Source: Alloalcanivorax gelatiniphagus
Lineage (GTDB): Bacteria; Pseudomonadota; Gammaproteobacteria; Pseudomonadales; Alcanivoracaceae
Assembly: GCF_005938655.1 (NCBI RefSeq)
Contig: NZ_VCQT01000001.1
Location: 124,001-188,000, forward strand
DNA: 64,000 nucleotides
Direction: 5' to 3'
Under the pieces are notes generated by a model. It did not search any database and was not told where the DNA came from. It saw only the letters and a program-made list of their open reading frames with translations. The position numbers and the translations under genes are program-made. Positions 2,159-48,775 of this stretch are shown here, piece after piece (the stretch's first letter is position 1; each line of letters starts with the position of its first letter).

Positions 2159-2656
2159 CACCGTGGTCGCTTCCGGGGTGCTCTGCGGTGCCGCCGGGTC
2201 CGGCTCGGGGTCGCTGAGCGGCTCCTGATCGACGGTACCGCCGTCGCGGCGACGGTCCTCGGCGCGCAGTTCCAGCTCCCGGTCGCGGCGGCCGGAGGTG
2301 CGCTGGCGCACATCAGGCAGGGCCTCGCCCTCATAGCGGCTGTACTGGCCACCTTCGAAATACACCACCACCTGCTGTTCCACGGTTTCCGCCTTGCCGG
2401 GCTGATAGCGCAGCAGGTAGAACCAGGTGTCGGCGGTGAAGGGGTCGGTGAGAGTGGGCGGCCCCAACACGAAACGTACCTGTTCCGGGGTCATGCCGGG
2501 CTCCAGCTCGGCCAGCATATCCTGGGTGACCACGTTCCCCTGGGGGATATCGACGCGGTACACCCCGGGGAAGCGCAGGGAGCTGCAGCCGGCCAGAAGG
2601 GCGGCGAAAAGCAGGGAAACGAGAATGATCCTTGGCATGATGTTTCGACTTGGCAT
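2141..2656 (-). CDS. bamE: BamE (OmlA/SmpA) outer-membrane assembly lipoprotein
   Basis: A 171-residue lipoprotein precursor with a short hydrophobic signal and lipobox LLAGC, followed by the BamE signature FPGVYRVDIPQGNVVTQDM and LEPGMTPEQVRFVLGPP. BamE is the small lipoprotein of the Bam complex that inserts beta-barrel proteins into the outer membrane. A second ATG at 2638 gives an 18-residue signal; neither start has a strong Shine-Dalgarno sequence, so the start is uncertain. The tail after about residue 115 is a hydrophilic Arg/Asp/Pro-rich extension of low complexity, and the last codons and stop lie in local repeats. Divergent from fur, as in Pseudomonas. Confidence 0.92.
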   Translation of the reverse strand: MPSRNIMPRIILVSLLFAALLAGCSSLRFPGVYRVDIPQGNVVTQDMLAELEPGMTPEQVRFVLGPPTLTDPFTADTWFYLLRYQPGKAETVEQQVVVYFEGGQYSRYEGEALPDVRQRTSGRRDRELELRAEDRRRDGGTVDQEPLSDPEPDPAAPQSTPEATTVPLPRS

Positions 2657-2747
2657 AATGTCCGGGCGATAATACAGACTTGTCTAAGGGGAACAAGGTT
2701 CCTCGTGGAATCGAGAATCCCCGCTGGCGGCATACGGAGCAATTATT

Positions 2748-3158
2748 TTGGATAATCAGGATCTTAGGAAAGCGGGCTTGAAGGTGACCCTGCCGCGGAT
2801 GAAAATTCTGCAGCAGCTGGAATCCTCCAAGGAACGGCATCTCAGCGCCGAGGACATCTACAAGGCACTGATGGACGCCGGCGAGGACGTGGGTCTGGCC
2901 ACGGTGTACCGGGTGCTCACCCAGTTCGAACAGGCCGGCATCGTGCTGCGGCACAACTTCGAGGGCGGTTCGGCGGTGTTCGAGCTGGCCGACGAGGAGC
3001 ACCACGATCACATGGTGTGCATGGAGTCCGGCGAGGTGATCGAGTTCCTGGACGAGGAAATCGAGAAGCGCCAGCACCGCATCGCCGAGGAGCACGGTTA
3101 CGAGATCGTCGACCACTCCCTGGTGCTGTACGTGCGCCCCAAAGCCGGTAGCAAGTAA
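2748..3158 (+). CDS. fur: Ferric uptake regulator Fur
   Basis: A 136-residue Fur protein: N-terminal winged helix (KVTLPRMKILQQLE, LATVYRVLTQFEQAGI) and C-terminal metal-binding/dimer domain with the HHDHMVC cluster. It represses iron-uptake genes when bound to Fe2+. The start is TTG 2748, supported by GGAG eight bases upstream and by alignment of the N-terminus. The second cysteine of the enterobacterial CxxC is replaced (C-M-E-S), as known for the Pseudomonas protein. Divergent from bamE and convergent with recN. Confidence 0.97.
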   Translation: MDNQDLRKAGLKVTLPRMKILQQLESSKERHLSAEDIYKALMDAGEDVGLATVYRVLTQFEQAGIVLRHNFEGGSAVFELADEEHHDHMVCMESGEVIEFLDEEIEKRQHRIAEEHGYEIVDHSLVLYVRPKAGSK

Positions 3159-42381: not shown

Positions 42382-43851
42382 TTACCCCTGATTGGAGGAG
42401 GAGGAACGTCCGCCGCGGCGCCGCCGGCGACGGCGACCGCCCCCGTTGTTGCCGCCGCCGCCATCACCGCCGGCGCCCTGGTTGGGCCCCAGGGCCTGGG
42501 TCATGGCGTAGCGTTCCTGCTCGTCGACCTGCTGATAGCGGGTCCACCAGGCGCCCAGGCCGGCACGGATCTCGCCGGCCTGCTCGCGGAGCAGCAGAAA
42601 ATCGTAGGCGGCGCGGAAGCGCGGGTGCTGCAGCAGGGTGTCCGCCCGTTTGCCGCCCCGGCGGGGCAGCCGTTGCTGCAGGTCCCACATTTCCCGCATC
42701 ACCGTGGAGAAGCGGCGCGGCACGGCGGTGTGCTGGATCTGCTGATCCAGCGCCCAGCTGGCGGCCTTGTGCAGGGCCGGCGCCGGCGGCACGCCATCGG
42801 CCCGGTACTTGTCCAGGCGCGCGGTCACCACCGGCCACAGCAGCACCGCCAGGATAAAGGCGGGGGTCACCGGCTTGTCTTCCGCCAGGCGCGCGTCGGT
42901 ATTGTCCATGGCCGCCAGAATCATCGCTTCCCAGGTCTCGCCCTGATCGCCTTGCAGGCAGAGGTCGGTCTCCGGGAACAGGAAGGGAAACAGCCCCAGC
43001 TCGCGCAGTTCCTGGTAGGAGGCGCGGGCATGGCCGCTGAGGAACAGCTTGAGGACCTCGTCGAACAGCCGTGCCGGCGGCACCTGCAGCAGCAGCTCGG
43101 CGAGGCGCGGGATCGGCTCGGCGGTGGCCCGGTCCGGCTCGAAGCCCAGCTTGGCGGCGAAGCGCGCCGCCCGCAGCATGCGCACCGGATCTTCCCGGTA
43201 GCGCTGTTCCGGGTCGCCGATCAACCGCAGCACGCCGCGCTCGATGTCCCGGCGGCTCTGCACGAAGTCGTACAGGGCGAAATCGGCGATGTTGTAGTAG
43301 AGCGCATTGACGGTGAAATCCCGGCGCAGCGCGTCTTCCTCGATGCTGCCCCAGGCATTGTCACGCAGTACCAGGCCGGTTTCCTCATGGGCCAGGTGCT
43401 GGTCGTCGTTCATGTCGTCGCGCTGGAAGGCGCGGAAGGTGGAGACTTCGATGATCTCGCGGCCGAAGCGCACATGCACGATCTGGAAGCGCCGGCCGAT
43501 GATGCGGCTGCGCTTGAACAGACGATGCACCTCATCCGGCGTGGCGTCGGTGACCACGTCGAAGTCCTTGGGCTGGCGCCCGCACAGCAGGTCTCGCAGG
43601 CAGCCGCCCACCAGATAGGCCTCGAAGCCGCCTTTGTGCAACCCGTACAGTACGTTCAGCGCGGCACGGGAAATGTCCTTGCGCGAGATCGTGTGCTGAT
43701 CGCGGGGAATCACCCGCGCTTCGGGAAGTCGGGGCGAGTCAAAGGAACCTTTGCGCAGGAGTCGGGTCCAGAGGAATAGGAATGGTCTTGAAATGAGAGT
43801 CCAAAGGTGCGGAAAAAATGCCGCTGAACGCTCTACGAATCTGGATGCCAT
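42382..43851 (-). CDS. pcnB: Poly(A) polymerase I
   Basis: About 489 residues. The nucleotidyltransferase core has EAYLVGGCLRDLLCGRQPKDFDVVTDA (catalytic Asp pair), RRFQIVHVRFGREIIEV and RRDFTVNALYYNIADF, then the RNA-binding neck RYREDPVRMLRAARFAAKLGF. The C-terminus is an Arg/Gly/Ser tail (GGGRRRRRRRGGRSSSS) suited to RNA contact. It adds 3' poly(A) tails that target RNAs, including small RNAs, for decay. ATG 43851 is chosen tentatively; the frame stays open to 43995 and the Shine-Dalgarno is weak. Adjacent to cbrAB as in Pseudomonas. Confidence 0.93.
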   Translation of the reverse strand: MASRFVERSAAFFPHLWTLISRPFLFLWTRLLRKGSFDSPRLPEARVIPRDQHTISRKDISRAALNVLYGLHKGGFEAYLVGGCLRDLLCGRQPKDFDVVTDATPDEVHRLFKRSRIIGRRFQIVHVRFGREIIEVSTFRAFQRDDMNDDQHLAHEETGLVLRDNAWGSIEEDALRRDFTVNALYYNIADFALYDFVQSRRDIERGVLRLIGDPEQRYREDPVRMLRAARFAAKLGFEPDRATAEPIPRLAELLLQVPPARLFDEVLKLFLSGHARASYQELRELGLFPFLFPETDLCLQGDQGETWEAMILAAMDNTDARLAEDKPVTPAFILAVLLWPVVTARLDKYRADGVPPAPALHKAASWALDQQIQHTAVPRRFSTVMREMWDLQQRLPRRGGKRADTLLQHPRFRAAYDFLLLREQAGEIRAGLGAWWTRYQQVDEQERYAMTQALGPNQGAGGDGGGGNNGGGRRRRRRRGGRSSSSNQG

Positions 43852-43982
43852 TGAGCAAAAAACGTCCTGACGAGATGAAAGGCGGCATGGTAGCACTTTT
43901 TCGCCGCCACCGGTCATCCGATATGGAGAAAGGTCTGGAGAGTGAGTTACACTTCCGCTCTGGTGCGCCGGGGCCGAAAAGT

Positions 43983-44013
43983 AAAAAGGGACCACAACCT
44001 TGGTCGTGGTCCC
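43983..44013 (-). terminator. Terminator of the CrcZ-like RNA
   Basis: On the minus strand GGGACCAC, ten-base loop, GTGGTCCC, then TTTTT. It lies between the A-rich unit and pcnB, pointing toward pcnB, and ends the small transcript. Confidence 0.85.
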
Positions 44014-44250
44014 CTATGCGCTGATTCTGTTGTTGTTATTTTTTATTTTGTTTTCTGCCTTGCGCCGTAATCAATTTTCGCTACGGCATGTTATTTCGGC
44101 TCAAGCTTTTTTCTTCTTCTTTTCTTGTTCTTATTCTGAGCCTCGTCGCCGTTGTTGTTTTCCTTATGTGGCGTGGGATTCATAGTGCATGGATGGATTT
44201 TTCATTGCAACAGCTTGTTAAATCCTTAAAAAACAATGACTTATGGAAAT
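43983..44250 (-). ncRNA. crcZ: CrcZ-like Hfq/Crc-sequestering small RNA (candidate)
   Basis: An AT-rich minus-strand unit in a GC-rich chromosome, bounded by the cbrB terminator (44439-44465) and its own terminator (43983-44013), directly between cbrB and pcnB: the crcZ position in Pseudomonas. The RNA would carry three A-rich blocks of the AAnAAn kind bound by Hfq with Crc: AAAACAACAAC (44151-44161), a 30-base AAG/AAC/AAA run (44106-44135) and a run ending AATAACAACAACAG (44027-44054). A hairpin (GCCGTA/TACGGC, 44064-44087) separates the last two. The 5' end is not determined; 44250 is approximate. Position and motifs are seen; the function is inferred from the Pseudomonas system. Confidence 0.65.
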
Positions 44251-44282
44251 TTTGAAAAATCAGGGTGTAAAGGTGACCGACA

Positions 44283-44323
44283 CCGGTAACGCACTTGTTA
44301 CCGTGCTGTGTAGTAAGGTAACA
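44283..44323 (-). promoter_or_regulatory. Putative CbrB binding sites upstream of the small RNA
   Basis: Three GTTACC/GGTAAC half-sites. On the plus strand: GGTAAC 44285-44290, TGTTACC 44296-44302, GGTAACA 44317-44323; on the minus strand TGTTACC-N14-GGTAACA followed by GTTACC. They lie upstream of the small RNA and resemble the inverted TGTTAC/GTAACA activator sites I recall for CbrB in Pseudomonas. Neither a canonical GG-N10-GC sigma-54 promoter nor a good sigma-70 promoter is visible below them. Confidence 0.45.
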
Positions 44324-44438
44324 CTTCTGAGGGGCGGCACGACGCCCCGCCCCTGACCCGCCAGAAGCAAGCACGGAAACCGGAAAAAAAATCCACATCG
44401 ATGCGAATCATCCGATGGTCAAGCGGCGGGAGGAATGT

Positions 44439-44465
44439 AAAACCGGCCGGGTTGAAGCCGGCCGG
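44439..44465 (-). terminator. cbrB terminator
   Basis: On the minus strand CCGGCCGG, loop CTTCAAC, CCGGCCGG, TTTTA, 23 bp after the cbrB stop. It insulates the downstream small-RNA unit from cbrAB transcription. Confidence 0.8.
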
Positions 44466-44488
44466 AGGCGGGTGGTCAGCCGGGCAGG

Positions 44489-45817
44489 CTAGCGGCGGGA
44501 GCCCCGTTTCGGGCGCTGGATGCTGAGGCGCTGGCGGCGCTCCCAGAGGCTCTTGCGGCTGATGCCGAGCTTCTGGGCCAGCTCGGTTTCCGTCATGTTG
44601 TCCTGGTTCTCCAGCACGAAACGGGTGAAATAGTCTTCCAGGGACAGGTCCTCGGAGGGGTCCAGGCTGGCGCGGCTCTGCCGCTGCGGGGTGCGGTTCG
44701 GGTTGAGGCCCAGCTGGGCCGGGCCGATACCGTCTTCCTCGGAGAGGATCACCGCCCGCTCGATCACGTTTTCCAGCTCCCTGACGTTGCCCGGCCAGGC
44801 ATAGCGCCGCATGGCGGCGAGCGCCTCCTCGGTGAAGAACAGCTCGCCCCGGCGCATTTTCTCGCGGCTGCGGGCCAGCAGGGCCCGGGCCAGCTCCTCC
44901 ACATCCTCATCGCGCTCGCGCAACGGCGGCAATTCCAGCTCCATTACATTGAGCCGGTAGTAGAGATCGTCGCGGAAACGGCCGTCGCTGACCCGGGCCG
45001 GCAATTCGGTCTGGCTGCTGGCGATCACGCGCACGTCCACCCGCCGCGCCGCCAGCGATTCCTGGCGATGGATCTCGCCCTGCTCCAGCAGCGTGAGCAG
45101 CCGGCTTTGCGCCTCCGGGGTCAATTCCCCCACCTCATCCAGAAACAGGGTGCCGCCGTCCGCCTCCTCGATGCGGCCGGCCCGTTCCTCGTCGCCGAAC
45201 AGTTCCTGCAGTTGCAGTGCCTTGGGCAGGGCGGCGCAGTGCACGGTGACCAGCGGCGCGCCGGCACGCTCACTGTGCTCGTGCAGGGCGCGGGCGGTGA
45301 GTTCCTTGCCGGTGCCGGCCTCGCCGAGAATCAGCACCGGGGTATGGGTGGGCCCAACCCGGCTGATACGGTGCTTGAGCTCCCGCATCGCCTCGCATTC
45401 GCCGATCATGGCGTGCACCGGGTAGCTGCGCTCCAGGTCCCGGCGCAGCACCCGGTTGCCCCGGTTGATACGGCCTTCCTTGAGCACCCGCTCCACCGCC
45501 AGCAGCATTTCATCGTGGTCGAACGGTTTGGGGATGTAGTCCACCGCGCCCTGGCGCATGGCGTCCACCGCCGAGCGCAGGCTGGCATAGCTGGTCATGA
45601 TCAGTACCGGCACCGAACCGGCCATTTCGATCAGCGCGGTGCCCGGCTCACCGGGCAGGCGCAGGTCGCTGATGATCAGGTCGCACTGGCCGAGGCCCTG
45701 TTCGCGGGCCTGTTCCACGGACTCCGCTTCCGTCACTGAATGATCGTGGCGCTCCAGCAGTTTACGCAGCGCGCCCCGGATAACGGGTTCATCCTCGACG
45801 ATCAGGATATGGCTCAT
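44489..45817 (-). CDS. cbrB: CbrB-type NtrC-family response regulator lacking GAFTGA
   Basis: A 442-residue regulator: receiver domain (phospho-acceptor Asp in DLIISDLRLPGEPGT, Lys in YIPKPFDH), AAA+ domain (Walker A GEAGTGKE, Walker B GGTLFLDEVGEL, arginine-finger region FRDDLYYRLNVMELELPPLRER, WPGNVRELENVIERAVIL) and a Fis-type helix-turn-helix (MTETELAQKLGISRKSLWER). Between Walker A and B the normal ELFGHEKGAFTGA...RAG region is shortened to ELFGDEERAGRIEEADGG: the GAFTGA sigma-54 contact loop is gone, in frame, with the rest intact. The C-terminus EDLSLEDYFTRFVLENQDNMTE is CbrB-like and the locus (cbrA, pcnB) agrees. In Pseudomonas CbrB controls carbon/nitrogen use through crcZ. Loss of GAFTGA suggests action without sigma-54. 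Confidence 0.9.
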   Translation of the reverse strand: MSHILIVEDEPVIRGALRKLLERHDHSVTEAESVEQAREQGLGQCDLIISDLRLPGEPGTALIEMAGSVPVLIMTSYASLRSAVDAMRQGAVDYIPKPFDHDEMLLAVERVLKEGRINRGNRVLRRDLERSYPVHAMIGECEAMRELKHRISRVGPTHTPVLILGEAGTGKELTARALHEHSERAGAPLVTVHCAALPKALQLQELFGDEERAGRIEEADGGTLFLDEVGELTPEAQSRLLTLLEQGEIHRQESLAARRVDVRVIASSQTELPARVSDGRFRDDLYYRLNVMELELPPLRERDEDVEELARALLARSREKMRRGELFFTEEALAAMRRYAWPGNVRELENVIERAVILSEEDGIGPAQLGLNPNRTPQRQSRASLDPSEDLSLEDYFTRFVLENQDNMTETELAQKLGISRKSLWERRQRLSIQRPKRGSRR

Positions 45818-45835: not shown

Positions 45836-48775
45836 TTATGTCGCTGGCGACCGGTCATCGGCGAACGCCGGCAACTCGATCACGAAGCGGGTACCCCGGC
45901 CGTTGTCGATGGGGCTTTCCACCCGCACCGTGCCGCGATGGTCCTCGATAATACTGTAAACCAGCGCCAGACCCAGCCCCGTGCCGCGGCCGGGCGGTTT
46001 GCTGGTCACGAAAGGTTCGAACAGGGCATCGCGCAGTTCTTCCGGCACCCCGTGGCCCCGATCTTCCACGGTAATGCGCAGATGCTGGTGCTGGCGCTCG
46101 CTGCGCACCACGATGGGCTGATCGTCCGGGCTGGCATCGGCGGCGTTGCCGAGCAGGTTGACGAACACCTGCAGCAAACGTTGCGGATCGCCCACCACTT
46201 CCTGATCGCCCGGGCACAGATTATCAAATTGCTGGCGCCGATGGTCCGGGTCCAGCAGCAGCAGGGCGATGGCTTCCGCCACGGTGGCGGCCAGATTGAC
46301 CGGGCCCTGGATGGTGTCGCGCACGCCGCCGGAATGGCTGAAAGTCACCAGCGACTCGACGATGCGGGTGATGCGCCGGGTCTGCTCCACGATCTGCCGG
46401 GCGCTGAGGCGCTGCTCGTCCTCGTCGCAATGGCCGTCCAGATTCTGGGCCAGGCAGGCAATGGCGGTCACCGGGTTGCCGATTTCGTGGGCCACGCCGG
46501 CGGCCAGCCGGCCGATGGAGGCGAGCCGTTCGTTGTGGGCCAGGTGCGATTCCATCTGGCGCAGCTCGGTGATGTCTTCCAGCACCAGCACCTGGCCGCC
46601 GGCCTGCTCGGTGGCGCCGGGGCTGTGAATCCTTGAGCGGTGCAGGCTCAGCCAGCGTGGCTGGCCGTCCACCTCCAGGTGGCGCTGGGGTTCGTGCTCA
46701 CTGTCGCCCCGGCTGAATTCGGCCAGCAGCTCGCCCCAGGGGGTGGGCAGGTGGCCGAGCCGGGAGCCGATGGTGTCCTCGGCGTCGATGCCGGTGAGGG
46801 TTTCCGCCGCCCGGTTCCAGCCGATGATTTCCCCGTCGCCGCCCAGGGAGATCACGCCCATGGGCAGCTCCAGCAGGGTCTGCCGGTGAAAGCGGCGCAG
46901 GCTGTCCAGTTCCGCCGCCAGACCGGACAGCTTGTCGCGGTACTGCTCCAGGCGGGTTTCGATAAAGCGGATGTCCTCGGACTCGCCTTCCTGGGGCTGG
47001 TAGGGCAGGTTGTCGTCCATCAGCTGGTGCGACACCGAAGGGCCCAGCAGCCCGGACAGATTGGTCTCCAACTGGTCGCGCAGACGGCGCAGCGCGTAGG
47101 GTCGGGTTTCCTCCCGGCCCAGGCGCAGGTCGCGCAGTGCCATGTCCACCTCGCGGCCGGCGGTGACCGGGCCCAGCGGGCCGCTCAGCGCGTGCACGAA
47201 GTCGTCCACGTCCTTCGCCCCCAGGTCCCAGCGATAGGGCCGGCGCAGGCTGTCCACCGCGCAGGCCTCGGCGGCGGTGCGTTCGGCCCGGGAAGTGGGG
47301 GTGATGATCGAGACGATGGCATAGATCAGCCCGTTCAGGCTGAGCGAGGCCACCGCTACCTGATTCCAGTGGGCCATGCCCTGGCGCGGGTGCAGGCCGA
47401 TCCACTCCAGCGCGGTGCCGGCCTGCCACTGCGGAAAGGTGATCGGGATCAGCAGCGCCAGCAACCACACCGCGAAACCGGCGACGATGCCGGCGAACAG
47501 GCCATTGCGGTTGCCGGACGGCCAGAACAGGGTGCCGATCAGGCCGGGCACGAACTGCAGGGCGGCCACGAACGACAGCACGCCCAGCTCCACCGAACTG
47601 TGCCCGGGGCCGGCCAGTCGGTAGAAGCCGTAGGCCAGCGCCAGGATGGCGGCGATCAACACGCGCCGGGTCCACAGCAGGTTGCGGTACAGATCGTGGG
47701 CGGAGCTGAGCGGGCTGGCCGGCAGCACCAGATGGTTCAGGCTCATGCCGGAGAGCGCCAGGGTGGCGACGATCAGCATGCCACTGGCGCCGGCCAGACC
47801 GGCCAGATAGCCGAGCACCGCGCCACCGCCATTGGCGAGCCCCACGCCCAGGGTGAAATAGTCCGGCGAGGTGGGCGCGTTGCTGGCCAGCGCCGCCCAC
47901 AGGATCACCGGCACGCACAGGGCCATGATCAGGAACAGCAGCGGCAACCCCCAGCTGGCCGACACCAGGGCGCGGGGATTGAGGTTCTCGGTGAACGCCA
48001 TATGGAACATGTGCGGCATCACCACCGCGGACACGAAGAACGCCATGATCAGGCTGTGCCAGCTGCCGTTTTGCAGCGGCCCGTAAAGCCGCGACAGCAT
48101 TTCCGGGTGGGCGTCCAGCCACTGGCCCAGCCCGCCTGGGCCGTCGAACACGCCAAACAGCCCCACCAGTGCCACCGCCACGAACGCCAACAGCTTGATC
48201 AGGGACTCCATGGCGATCGCCACCACCAGGCCCTCGTGGCGTTCCCGGGCGGTGGCATGGCGGGCGCCGAACAGAATGGCGAACAGGGTAATCAGCAGGC
48301 AGAACCACAACGCCACCCAGGCCGGGTCCGGCTCGCCGGTGAGAATCTGGATCGACTCCGCCACCGCTTTGATCTGCATGGACAGCAGTGGCAGCATGCC
48401 GACCACCATCATCAGGGTGGTCAGGGCGCCGGCCAGGCGGCTGCGATAACGGAACGCGAACAGGTCCGCCAGGGAGCTGAGCTGATAGGTGGTGGTGAGC
48501 CGCAGGATCGGCGCCAGCAGAATCGGCGCCAGCAGGAACACCCCGGAAATACCCAGGAAATAGGCCAGGAAGTTGTAGCCGTAGTCGTGGGCATAGCCCA
48601 CCGAGCCGTAGATCGCCCAGGCGCTGGCGTACACCCCCAGGGAAAACACGAACACCGCCGGATGGCGCACCAGCCGGGCGGGGATGTAGCCCTTTTCGGT
48701 GATCCAGGCGACCAGGAACAGGAACAGCAGGTAGCCGCCGGCGATCAGGATCAGCTCGCTAACGCTATAGGCCAT
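45836..48775 (-). CDS. cbrA: CbrA sensor histidine kinase with solute-symporter domain
   Basis: A 979-residue membrane kinase. Residues ~1-500 form a sodium:solute-symporter-like domain of about thirteen hydrophobic segments. A linker region (~505-610) follows, then a PAS domain ([22 protein letters not shown]), HisKA with the phospho-His in [20 protein letters not shown] and an ATPase domain ([34 protein letters not shown]). This SSS-kinase fusion is diagnostic of CbrA, which in Pseudomonas signals carbon/nitrogen status and transports histidine. Its start overlaps cbrX by 11 bases and it ends 18 bp before cbrB. Confidence 0.95.

Follow-up and report, generated by a model that had tools for sequence, protein, structure and literature searches.

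A conserved RNA gene between cbrB and pcnB in Alcanivoracaceae: a candidate Hfq decoy in a CbrAB circuit where neither Crc nor a sigma-54 promoter was found

Does the DNA between cbrB and pcnB of Alloalcanivorax gelatiniphagus encode an RNA of the CrcZ type, and could such an RNA serve the carbon control known from Pseudomonas? The question arises in the Alcanivoracaceae (hereafter the family), well known marine oil degraders. The window analysed here is a 64-kb stretch of this genome. Its GC minimum, 0.37 against a mean of 0.66 (sd 0.05), is the 200-bp stretch from 44071, and all 12 of its lowest-GC 200-bp stretches start at 44011-44121. This bears out a preliminary description, which had reported a strongly AT-rich minus-strand island fenced by two terminators, with three A-rich blocks and no convincing gene. 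The element extends beyond the A-rich part, to CbrB-type sites and a promoter at 44323-44182. The features of the locus, all on the minus strand, are as follows.

45836-48775, minus strand: sensor histidine kinase gene directly upstream of cbrB (PAS, HisKA, HATPase_c), which we take to be cbrA from its neighbourhood
44489-45817, minus strand: cbrB, NtrC-type response regulator (Pfam Response_reg and Sigma54_activat)
44443-44465, minus strand: predicted terminator after cbrB
44317-44323, minus strand: CbrB-type forward subsite TGTTACC
44296-44301, minus strand: CbrB-type reverse subsite GTAACA, 22 nt after the forward subsite
44232-44243, minus strand: IHF-like site (YAANNNNTTGATW type, one mismatch), between the CbrB sites and the promoter
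44205-44210, minus strand: -35-like hexamer TTGCAA, 113 nt from the forward CbrB subsite
44182-44187, minus strand: -10-like hexamer CACTAT (CAnnAT), 17 bp after the -35
43976-44175, minus strand: RNA gene, about 190-200 nt, its start placed from the -10
44147-44173, minus strand: hairpin 1, whose loop contains A-rich block 1 (AACAACAAC at 44159-44151); 97.4% of cells paired
44098-44142, minus strand: hairpin 2 (GGCTCAG...CTTGAGCC), whose loop contains A-rich block 2 (AATAAGAACAAGAAA / AAGAAGAAAAAA at 44135-44107); 97.7% of cells paired
44064-44087, minus strand: hairpin 3, variable in sequence between genera
44029-44047, minus strand: A-rich block 3, single-stranded in the fold
44017-44028, minus strand: AGAATCAGCGCA, candidate pairing or protein site directly before the terminator
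43986-44015, minus strand: intrinsic terminator with compensatory changes
42382-43851, minus strand: open reading frame, presumably pcnB (start codon taken as the ATG at 43851), the conserved downstream neighbour

A conserved RNA gene in the crcZ position

As read from its sequence, the element is a conserved RNA gene on the minus strand between cbrB and pcnB, the position that CrcZ, CrcY and CrcX (RF01675) of Pseudomonas and Azotobacter also occupy, after cbrB and before pcnB. Its predicted fold has a z-score of -4.97, and 98.5% of pair cells are formed across 26 aligned family sequences. Changes on both sides were seen in eight of 20 pairs, seven of these in the 3' terminator, where they affect seven of 12 pairs; hairpin 2 has none. 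Hairpins 1 and 2 are near-invariant and thus give almost no covariation, which counts against the reading that we prefer. As to the two terminators that were said to fence the island, sites are predicted at 44015-43986 and at 44465-44443; for the latter, inspection by eye shows a counterpart in no relatives but L003 and L004, both close, and 43000-45500 contains no more terminator-like sites than chance would give (3, with 2.8 expected). The open reading frames in the island are short, and indels in the family alignment would disrupt any reading frame.

The A-rich blocks of the AAnAAn type are present on the minus strand as described, including the second copy of AACAACAAC at 44037-44029. Runs of at least three AAN triplets cover 54 of the 200 nt of the RNA, far above the 12.4 nt (sd 9.0) of dinucleotide shuffles, none of which reached this coverage in 1000 trials. 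In the 3' part of block 3, the family alignment keeps the A's of successive AAN triplets invariant and lets the N vary. Absence of the blocks from close relatives would have told against the preliminary description; they are conserved across the family.

It is very improbable that the element is a leader or regulatory element of pcnB rather than an independent RNA. In 23 of the 24 family loci pcnB does follow the element in the same orientation (the sequence of the remaining one, L013, ends before pcnB), but the element is closed by a strong covarying terminator some 130 nt short of pcnB, and the stretch from there to pcnB seems, by eye, less conserved.

Is this RNA a member of the Rfam CrcZ family? 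Within the whole genome, the only match to RF01675 at E <= 10 lies on the island (44122-44167, minus strand), with 12.7 bits (E 0.62) against a gathering cut-off of 95. Matches at E <= 10 also appear in nine of 14 control genomes and, since these are equally strong, we do not use the one on the island as proof and regard it as weak evidence. Across 293 genomes of the order, 59 match RF01675 at E <= 0.001, none of them from the family. The expectation that a CrcZ-like RNA here could have diverged enough to escape similarity search is therefore borne out, the RNA being too diverged for the Rfam model. Rfam as a whole, at gathering and at relaxed thresholds, gave no relevant match within the window. 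Elsewhere in the window lies a ribosomal S15 leader (RF00114, 29699-29816, plus strand, 46.3 bits).

A DNA search with 43983-44480 in 38 genomes (25 of the family and 13 from outside it) matched 24, the query's own included, all of them among the 25 of the family. Each of these 24 has its match at the cbrB locus, and there were five extra places elsewhere. A covariance model found one copy in each of the 25 family genomes; it was built from 26 sequences, from 23 of these genomes and three others, which leaves G020, missed by the DNA search, and a cut copy in G009 as the only independent cases. Of the 13 genomes from outside the family, one had a weak match to the model (E 0.0056), coinciding with the Rfam CrcZ match there. 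In G031, a CrcZ-type RNA (L265, C154:54748-54996) lies on a different contig from the best cbrB match and is matched both by RF01675 and by the covariance model made here. For all counts L001, a repeat of L002, was dropped beforehand, and L013, whose contig ends inside the RNA, was excluded from the alignment (A1) and from the tree described below.

L026-L030 were considered as second, crcY-like gene copies and rejected: they lack a promoter of the family pattern and, except for a GTAACA within the A-rich match in four, a nearby CbrB-type site; they lie opposite an rpoH or phasin gene; and the covariance model gives one copy per family genome.

A 19-base pattern from the 3' part of the RNA was also searched in a collection of 84,980 species and returned 78 stretches. 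Of these, 34 adjoin cbrB or pcnB and carry titles of Alcanivorax, Alloalcanivorax or Alcanivoracaceae, except two contigs of one 'Pseudomonadales bacterium' bin. The other 44 are scattered and adjoin neither gene; L211, one of them, neighbours an unrelated activator-like gene. The pattern is exact, so family species with any change in it escape, and among the 78 matches we noticed no title of Alcanivorax borkumensis.

CbrB-type sites, promoter and activator

Sigma-54 promoters are activated in Pseudomonas putida by CbrB, which recognises a TGTTAC and a GTAACA subsite separated by 20-25 bp (PMC6296734, in excerpt). In the family, TGTTACC is found in all 27 regions examined, followed after 21-23 nt by GTAACA in 23 of them, the exceptions being L021-L024. 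As in front of CrcZ, subsites of the predicted CbrB type thus precede the RNA gene.

The promoter that they precede appears to be of another class. The pattern TTGC[AC][AT]-N17-CA..AT occurs in 27 of 27 family regions and in none of 40 regions from other families, shuffles leading one to expect it in 0.11 of 27. It was written after 24 of the 27 had been seen, and its fair test consists of L070-L072 and 10 later sequences, G020 included, all of which fit (the later set held 11, of which L225 repeats L009); L174 and L199, whose sequences stop short of the promoter, do not show the pattern. In 22 diverse family sequences, themselves selected by the pattern, TTGC and CA..AT are present in all, and the commonest base of the spacer averages 54%. 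The distance from TGTTACC to TTGC was not demanded by the pattern: among 38 sequences (37 without L225, which is among the first group) it is 113 nt in 29, 112 or 114 in four and 101-102 in five. The last class is shorter by about one helical turn, and it includes L021-L024, the four regions without GTAACA at 21-23 nt, and L264, in which GTAACA is absent within 60 nt. The IHF-like site, recognised by its consensus, is missing in similar form from some family regions. A scan with the sigma-70 consensus reported no promoter at its thresholds; the -10 here begins with C, not T. Both points count against the preferred reading, as does the fact that the pattern was derived from most of the sequences that show it.

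None of the 27 family regions reaches 11 of the 12 defined positions of a sigma-54 promoter. Among the cbrB-downstream regions of other families, 34 of 40 (28 of 32 families) have one with 11-12 of 12 positions, 28-58 nt before the next A-rich block. The six without a recognisable sigma-54 promoter count against a switch of sigma factor, though in four of them the RNA region after cbrB is incomplete in the sequence read, or scores are poor.

CbrB itself has changed as well. The copy of the window keeps Walker A (GEAGTGKE), Walker B and the helix-turn-helix, and its GAFTGA loop is deleted (LFGDEERAGRIEEADGGT). GAFTGA was found in none of the 27 family CbrB proteins searched and is also missing in G020: the loop is deleted in Alloalcanivorax, and elsewhere in the family it reads GAFEGA, GAVAGR, DALPGA, GAFAAA or GAFAGA. 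Receiver, both Walker motifs and helix-turn-helix are kept in the family, except that L025 has altered Walker motifs. In 40 of 40 CbrB proteins from 32 other families, GAFTGA or GSFTGA is intact; these loci were hand-picked, one to five per family, and not at random, among CbrB matches at E <= 1e-80, which 245 of 293 genomes have. In a tree of 65 CbrB proteins, the family forms one side of one branch (support 100/97); L128, for which downstream sequence is missing, was left out of the tree and kept in the promoter and GAFTGA counts. The CbrB of L025 (G018) sits on a very long branch, with a Walker A of GEASTGKQ and an altered Walker B, a further point against the preferred reading. Loss of GAFTGA is not general in this genome, because rpoN is present and three other strong activators keep GAFTGA or GSFTGA; a fourth has GAFTHA, the comparison covering the five strong of 10 PF00158 matches.

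Changes in GAFTGA go together with loss of sigma-54 contact, for which the motif is essential, and TyrR, DhaR and HupR are GAFTGA-less activators that depend on sigma-70 (PMC3162934, in excerpt). The simplest reading is that CbrB now acts on a sigma-70-type promoter at the same gene. This predicted use of sigma-70 at a CbrB-controlled promoter is the new part of our proposal. Like TyrR, DhaR and HupR, CbrB here has kept its AAA+ and DNA-binding parts and has a changed or deleted loop (PMC3162934, in excerpt); it differs from them in being a response regulator whose sites lie some 113 bp ahead of the -35 at a small-RNA gene, its sigma-70 use being predicted.

Could the promoter nonetheless still be served by sigma-54, with TTGCAA as the -12 element beside an unusual -24, opened by the GAFTGA-less CbrB or by another activator? 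TTGCA does resemble a -12 element, rpoN is at hand, and an IHF-like tract with remote activator sites is typical of sigma-54 promoters. However, 21 of 22 sequences have T as the first base at the place, counted from TTGC, where a -24 would have its GG; GG-N10-GC sites in the 27 regions score at most 10 of 12, the one with that score lying far downstream in L021; GAFTGA is described as essential for sigma-54 contact (PMC3162934, in excerpt); and a CAnnAT at exactly 17 bp would be left unexplained. We consider this alternative improbable.

It is scarcely credible, moreover, that the RNA is a transcribed relic whose circuit decayed with Crc and the CbrB loop. Both of these are indeed lost, and in G018 the ATPase motifs are altered as well, but CbrB sites, spacing, promoter, AAN phase and the 12-mer AGAATCAGCGCA are all kept although the identity of CbrB to the copy of the window, 95-96% in an Alcanivorax bin (L214) and in Alloalcanivorax marinus NMRL4 (L243), falls to 47-62% in more distant family genera.

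Crc, Hfq and the proposed circuit

The preliminary description expected Crc/Hfq-type carbon control, and here the two partners fare differently. Hfq is present in all 25 family genomes. With Crc of P. aeruginosa as query, no match among the 25 goes below E 5.2e-10, and at a threshold of 0.001 the genome of the window yields none, so that its three proteins of the superfamily include no Crc match. Weak matches in 15 of the 25 (mostly 26-30% identity, 24% in G018) were taken for other superfamily members. Outside the family, 12 of 13 genomes match at E 5.4e-60 or better (the match of G029, L139, has an in-frame stop), and the exception, G026, is a 75% complete genome in which a match to hfq is missing too. 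Each of the 12 has a copy at E <= 8e-60 whose active site departs from the exonuclease type, as that of Crc itself does; three also have a higher-scoring relative of the active type (QETK/QETR, SDHAP). In G025 (L136), one of the genomes outside the family, crc (1420-2274) lies between pyrE (775-1443) and rph (2353-3102); at the corresponding place in the genome studied here (L296), rph, named by reading, ends at 1451 and the pyrE frame starts at 1468, the two being adjacent with no crc between them.

The earlier interpretation is supported as far as it concerns an RNA gene at the site of crcZ, which CbrB-type sites precede and which carries Hfq-type blocks. Control of the Crc/Hfq type is not supported, since Hfq is present but no Crc was found; the control also differs from that of CrcZ, a sigma-54 promoter not having been found and CbrB lacking its sigma-54 contact loop. 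The RNA shares with CrcZ, CrcY and CrcX the TGTTAC/GTAACA subsites in front and several A-rich AAN blocks. It differs in its length (about 190-200 nt against about 400, the Rfam model having 398 positions), in an additional AGAATCAGCGCA and in the promoter, activator, Crc and model score described above. By all features that can be read it would work like CrcZ, and we do not class it as a member of RF01675, because neither the sigma-54 promoter nor Crc was found and the model score falls short.

We consider it probable that the RNA is a CbrB-activated Hfq decoy that moved from sigma-54 to sigma-70 control and works without Crc. From published work on CbrAB, CbrA would sense a poor carbon supply and activate CbrB, which would bind the conserved TGTTACC/GTAACA sites about 113 bp upstream of the -35; a bend at the IHF-like tract could help it touch RNA polymerase. 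CbrB would then activate the weak sigma-70-type promoter TTGCAA-17-CAnnAT in the manner of TyrR, DhaR and HupR, a step that we propose because CbrB lost its GAFTGA loop and the promoter its -24/-12 elements, two independent losses in sequence. The RNA made would act as a decoy for Hfq and so affect carbon use; transcription, the use of CbrB and sigma-70, Hfq binding and the effect on carbon are what we infer from sequence. As no Crc was found to lock Hfq on mRNAs, Hfq would have to carry this circuit in the family by itself.

The CrcZ of P. aeruginosa attaches to the distal face of Hfq and draws the protein away from A-rich leaders (PMC4063720, in excerpt), and Crc stabilises the complex of Hfq and mRNA (PMC8266614, in excerpt). 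An RNA that titrates Hfq can accordingly make sense in a cell without Crc. Repression in P. aeruginosa without Crc falls by about half (PMC8266614, in excerpt), and by analogy a Crc-less circuit might be weak. Titrating RNAs of the CsrB/RsmZ type likewise carry several protein-binding motifs in a decoy RNA (PMC4063720, in excerpt); here, in contrast, the titrated protein would be Hfq and the motifs AAN repeats.

One observation on Hfq counts against the preferred reading. Position 25, a tyrosine of the A-binding face, carries phenylalanine in each of the 23 family rows read, as it does in two of six outgroup rows (L292, L295), both from genomes with a Crc match.

The conserved 12-mer and the wider occurrence of the circuit

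AGAATCAGCGCA is the part of the RNA that titration leaves unexplained. All 26 aligned family sequences share it unchanged, a conservation beyond what titration would need, and it stands just before the terminator. The RNA could accordingly be a base-pairing small RNA, one whose single-stranded AGAATCAGCGCA serves as the seed and anneals to mRNAs aided by Hfq, which the A-rich blocks would do no more than recruit. Also in favour of such a role, ATCAGCGC occurs in two of the 40 cbrB-downstream regions of other families, 8 and 1287 nt after cbrB and away from the RNA, and there is complementarity to a phasin leader in one genome (G014) and to the 3' end of rpoH in four. In G014, the leader of a phasin gene (PF05597) contains an imperfect antisense copy, about 50 nt long, of the 3' block of the RNA (L028, 1499-1552), beginning 93 nt before the ATG; the duplex is predicted at -96 kcal/mol, against -47 for shuffles (lowest -66). 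In G005-G008, an A-rich stretch ending in AATCAGCGCA (about 1500-1551 of L026, L027, L029 and L030) lies opposite a sigma-factor gene, taken for rpoH, just past its stop, so that the 3' end of that mRNA is complementary to the RNA; duplex values are -68 to -76, against -49 to -52 for shuffles (lowest -64 to -71).

Because they were found in five of 38 genomes only, the phasin and rpoH places are leads, not conserved targets. The duplex shuffles preserved base composition only, G020, outside the alignment, carries GCATCAGCGCA in place of AGAATCAGCGCA, and AAN periodicity in three blocks exceeds what a recruitment site needs. Base pairing as the main function is thus doubtful, though worth bearing in mind. 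A combined scheme would have the family rewire the whole cascade: Crc discarded, CbrB moved from sigma-54 to sigma-70, the Hfq decoy shortened, and base pairing through AGAATCAGCGCA added on carbon-storage and stress mRNAs (the phasin leader and the rpoH 3' end). This we regard as unlikely.

If the preferred reading, an Hfq decoy under CbrB and sigma-70, is right, the Alcanivoracaceae would be a natural experiment in which a decoy RNA was retained though Crc and sigma-54 control are gone. Two questions follow: which role is left to an Hfq decoy once Crc is missing, and by which route an activator can pass from sigma-54 to sigma-70 with its DNA sites retained. In the open-licence literature we found no report of the family's RNA, of its loss of Crc or of its change in CbrB, and no paper pairing CrcZ with Alcanivorax or Marinobacter; CbrB together with Alcanivorax gave one paper, unrelated as far as its excerpt goes, and the excerpted text of the GAFTGA survey (PMC3162934) does not mention Alcanivorax.

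CbrAB has been called unique to Pseudomonas and Azotobacter (PMC8871633 and PMC6296734, in excerpt). Among the 32 other families read from the order, one of which (f21) is probably Pseudomonadaceae itself, 28 have a CbrB with GAFTGA followed by CbrB subsites, a sigma-54 promoter and A-rich blocks (L096-L135). As its features are visible in so many families, a circuit of the CbrAB type looks, judged by these predicted elements, older and wider than these two genera. Some of these loci hold more than one unit: L132 has two tandem units of CbrB site, sigma-54 promoter and A-rich blocks, at about 85-355 and 586-961 after cbrB, and in L126, L122, L123 and L127 there seems to be either a second unit or a single one lying some hundreds of bases farther away from cbrB.
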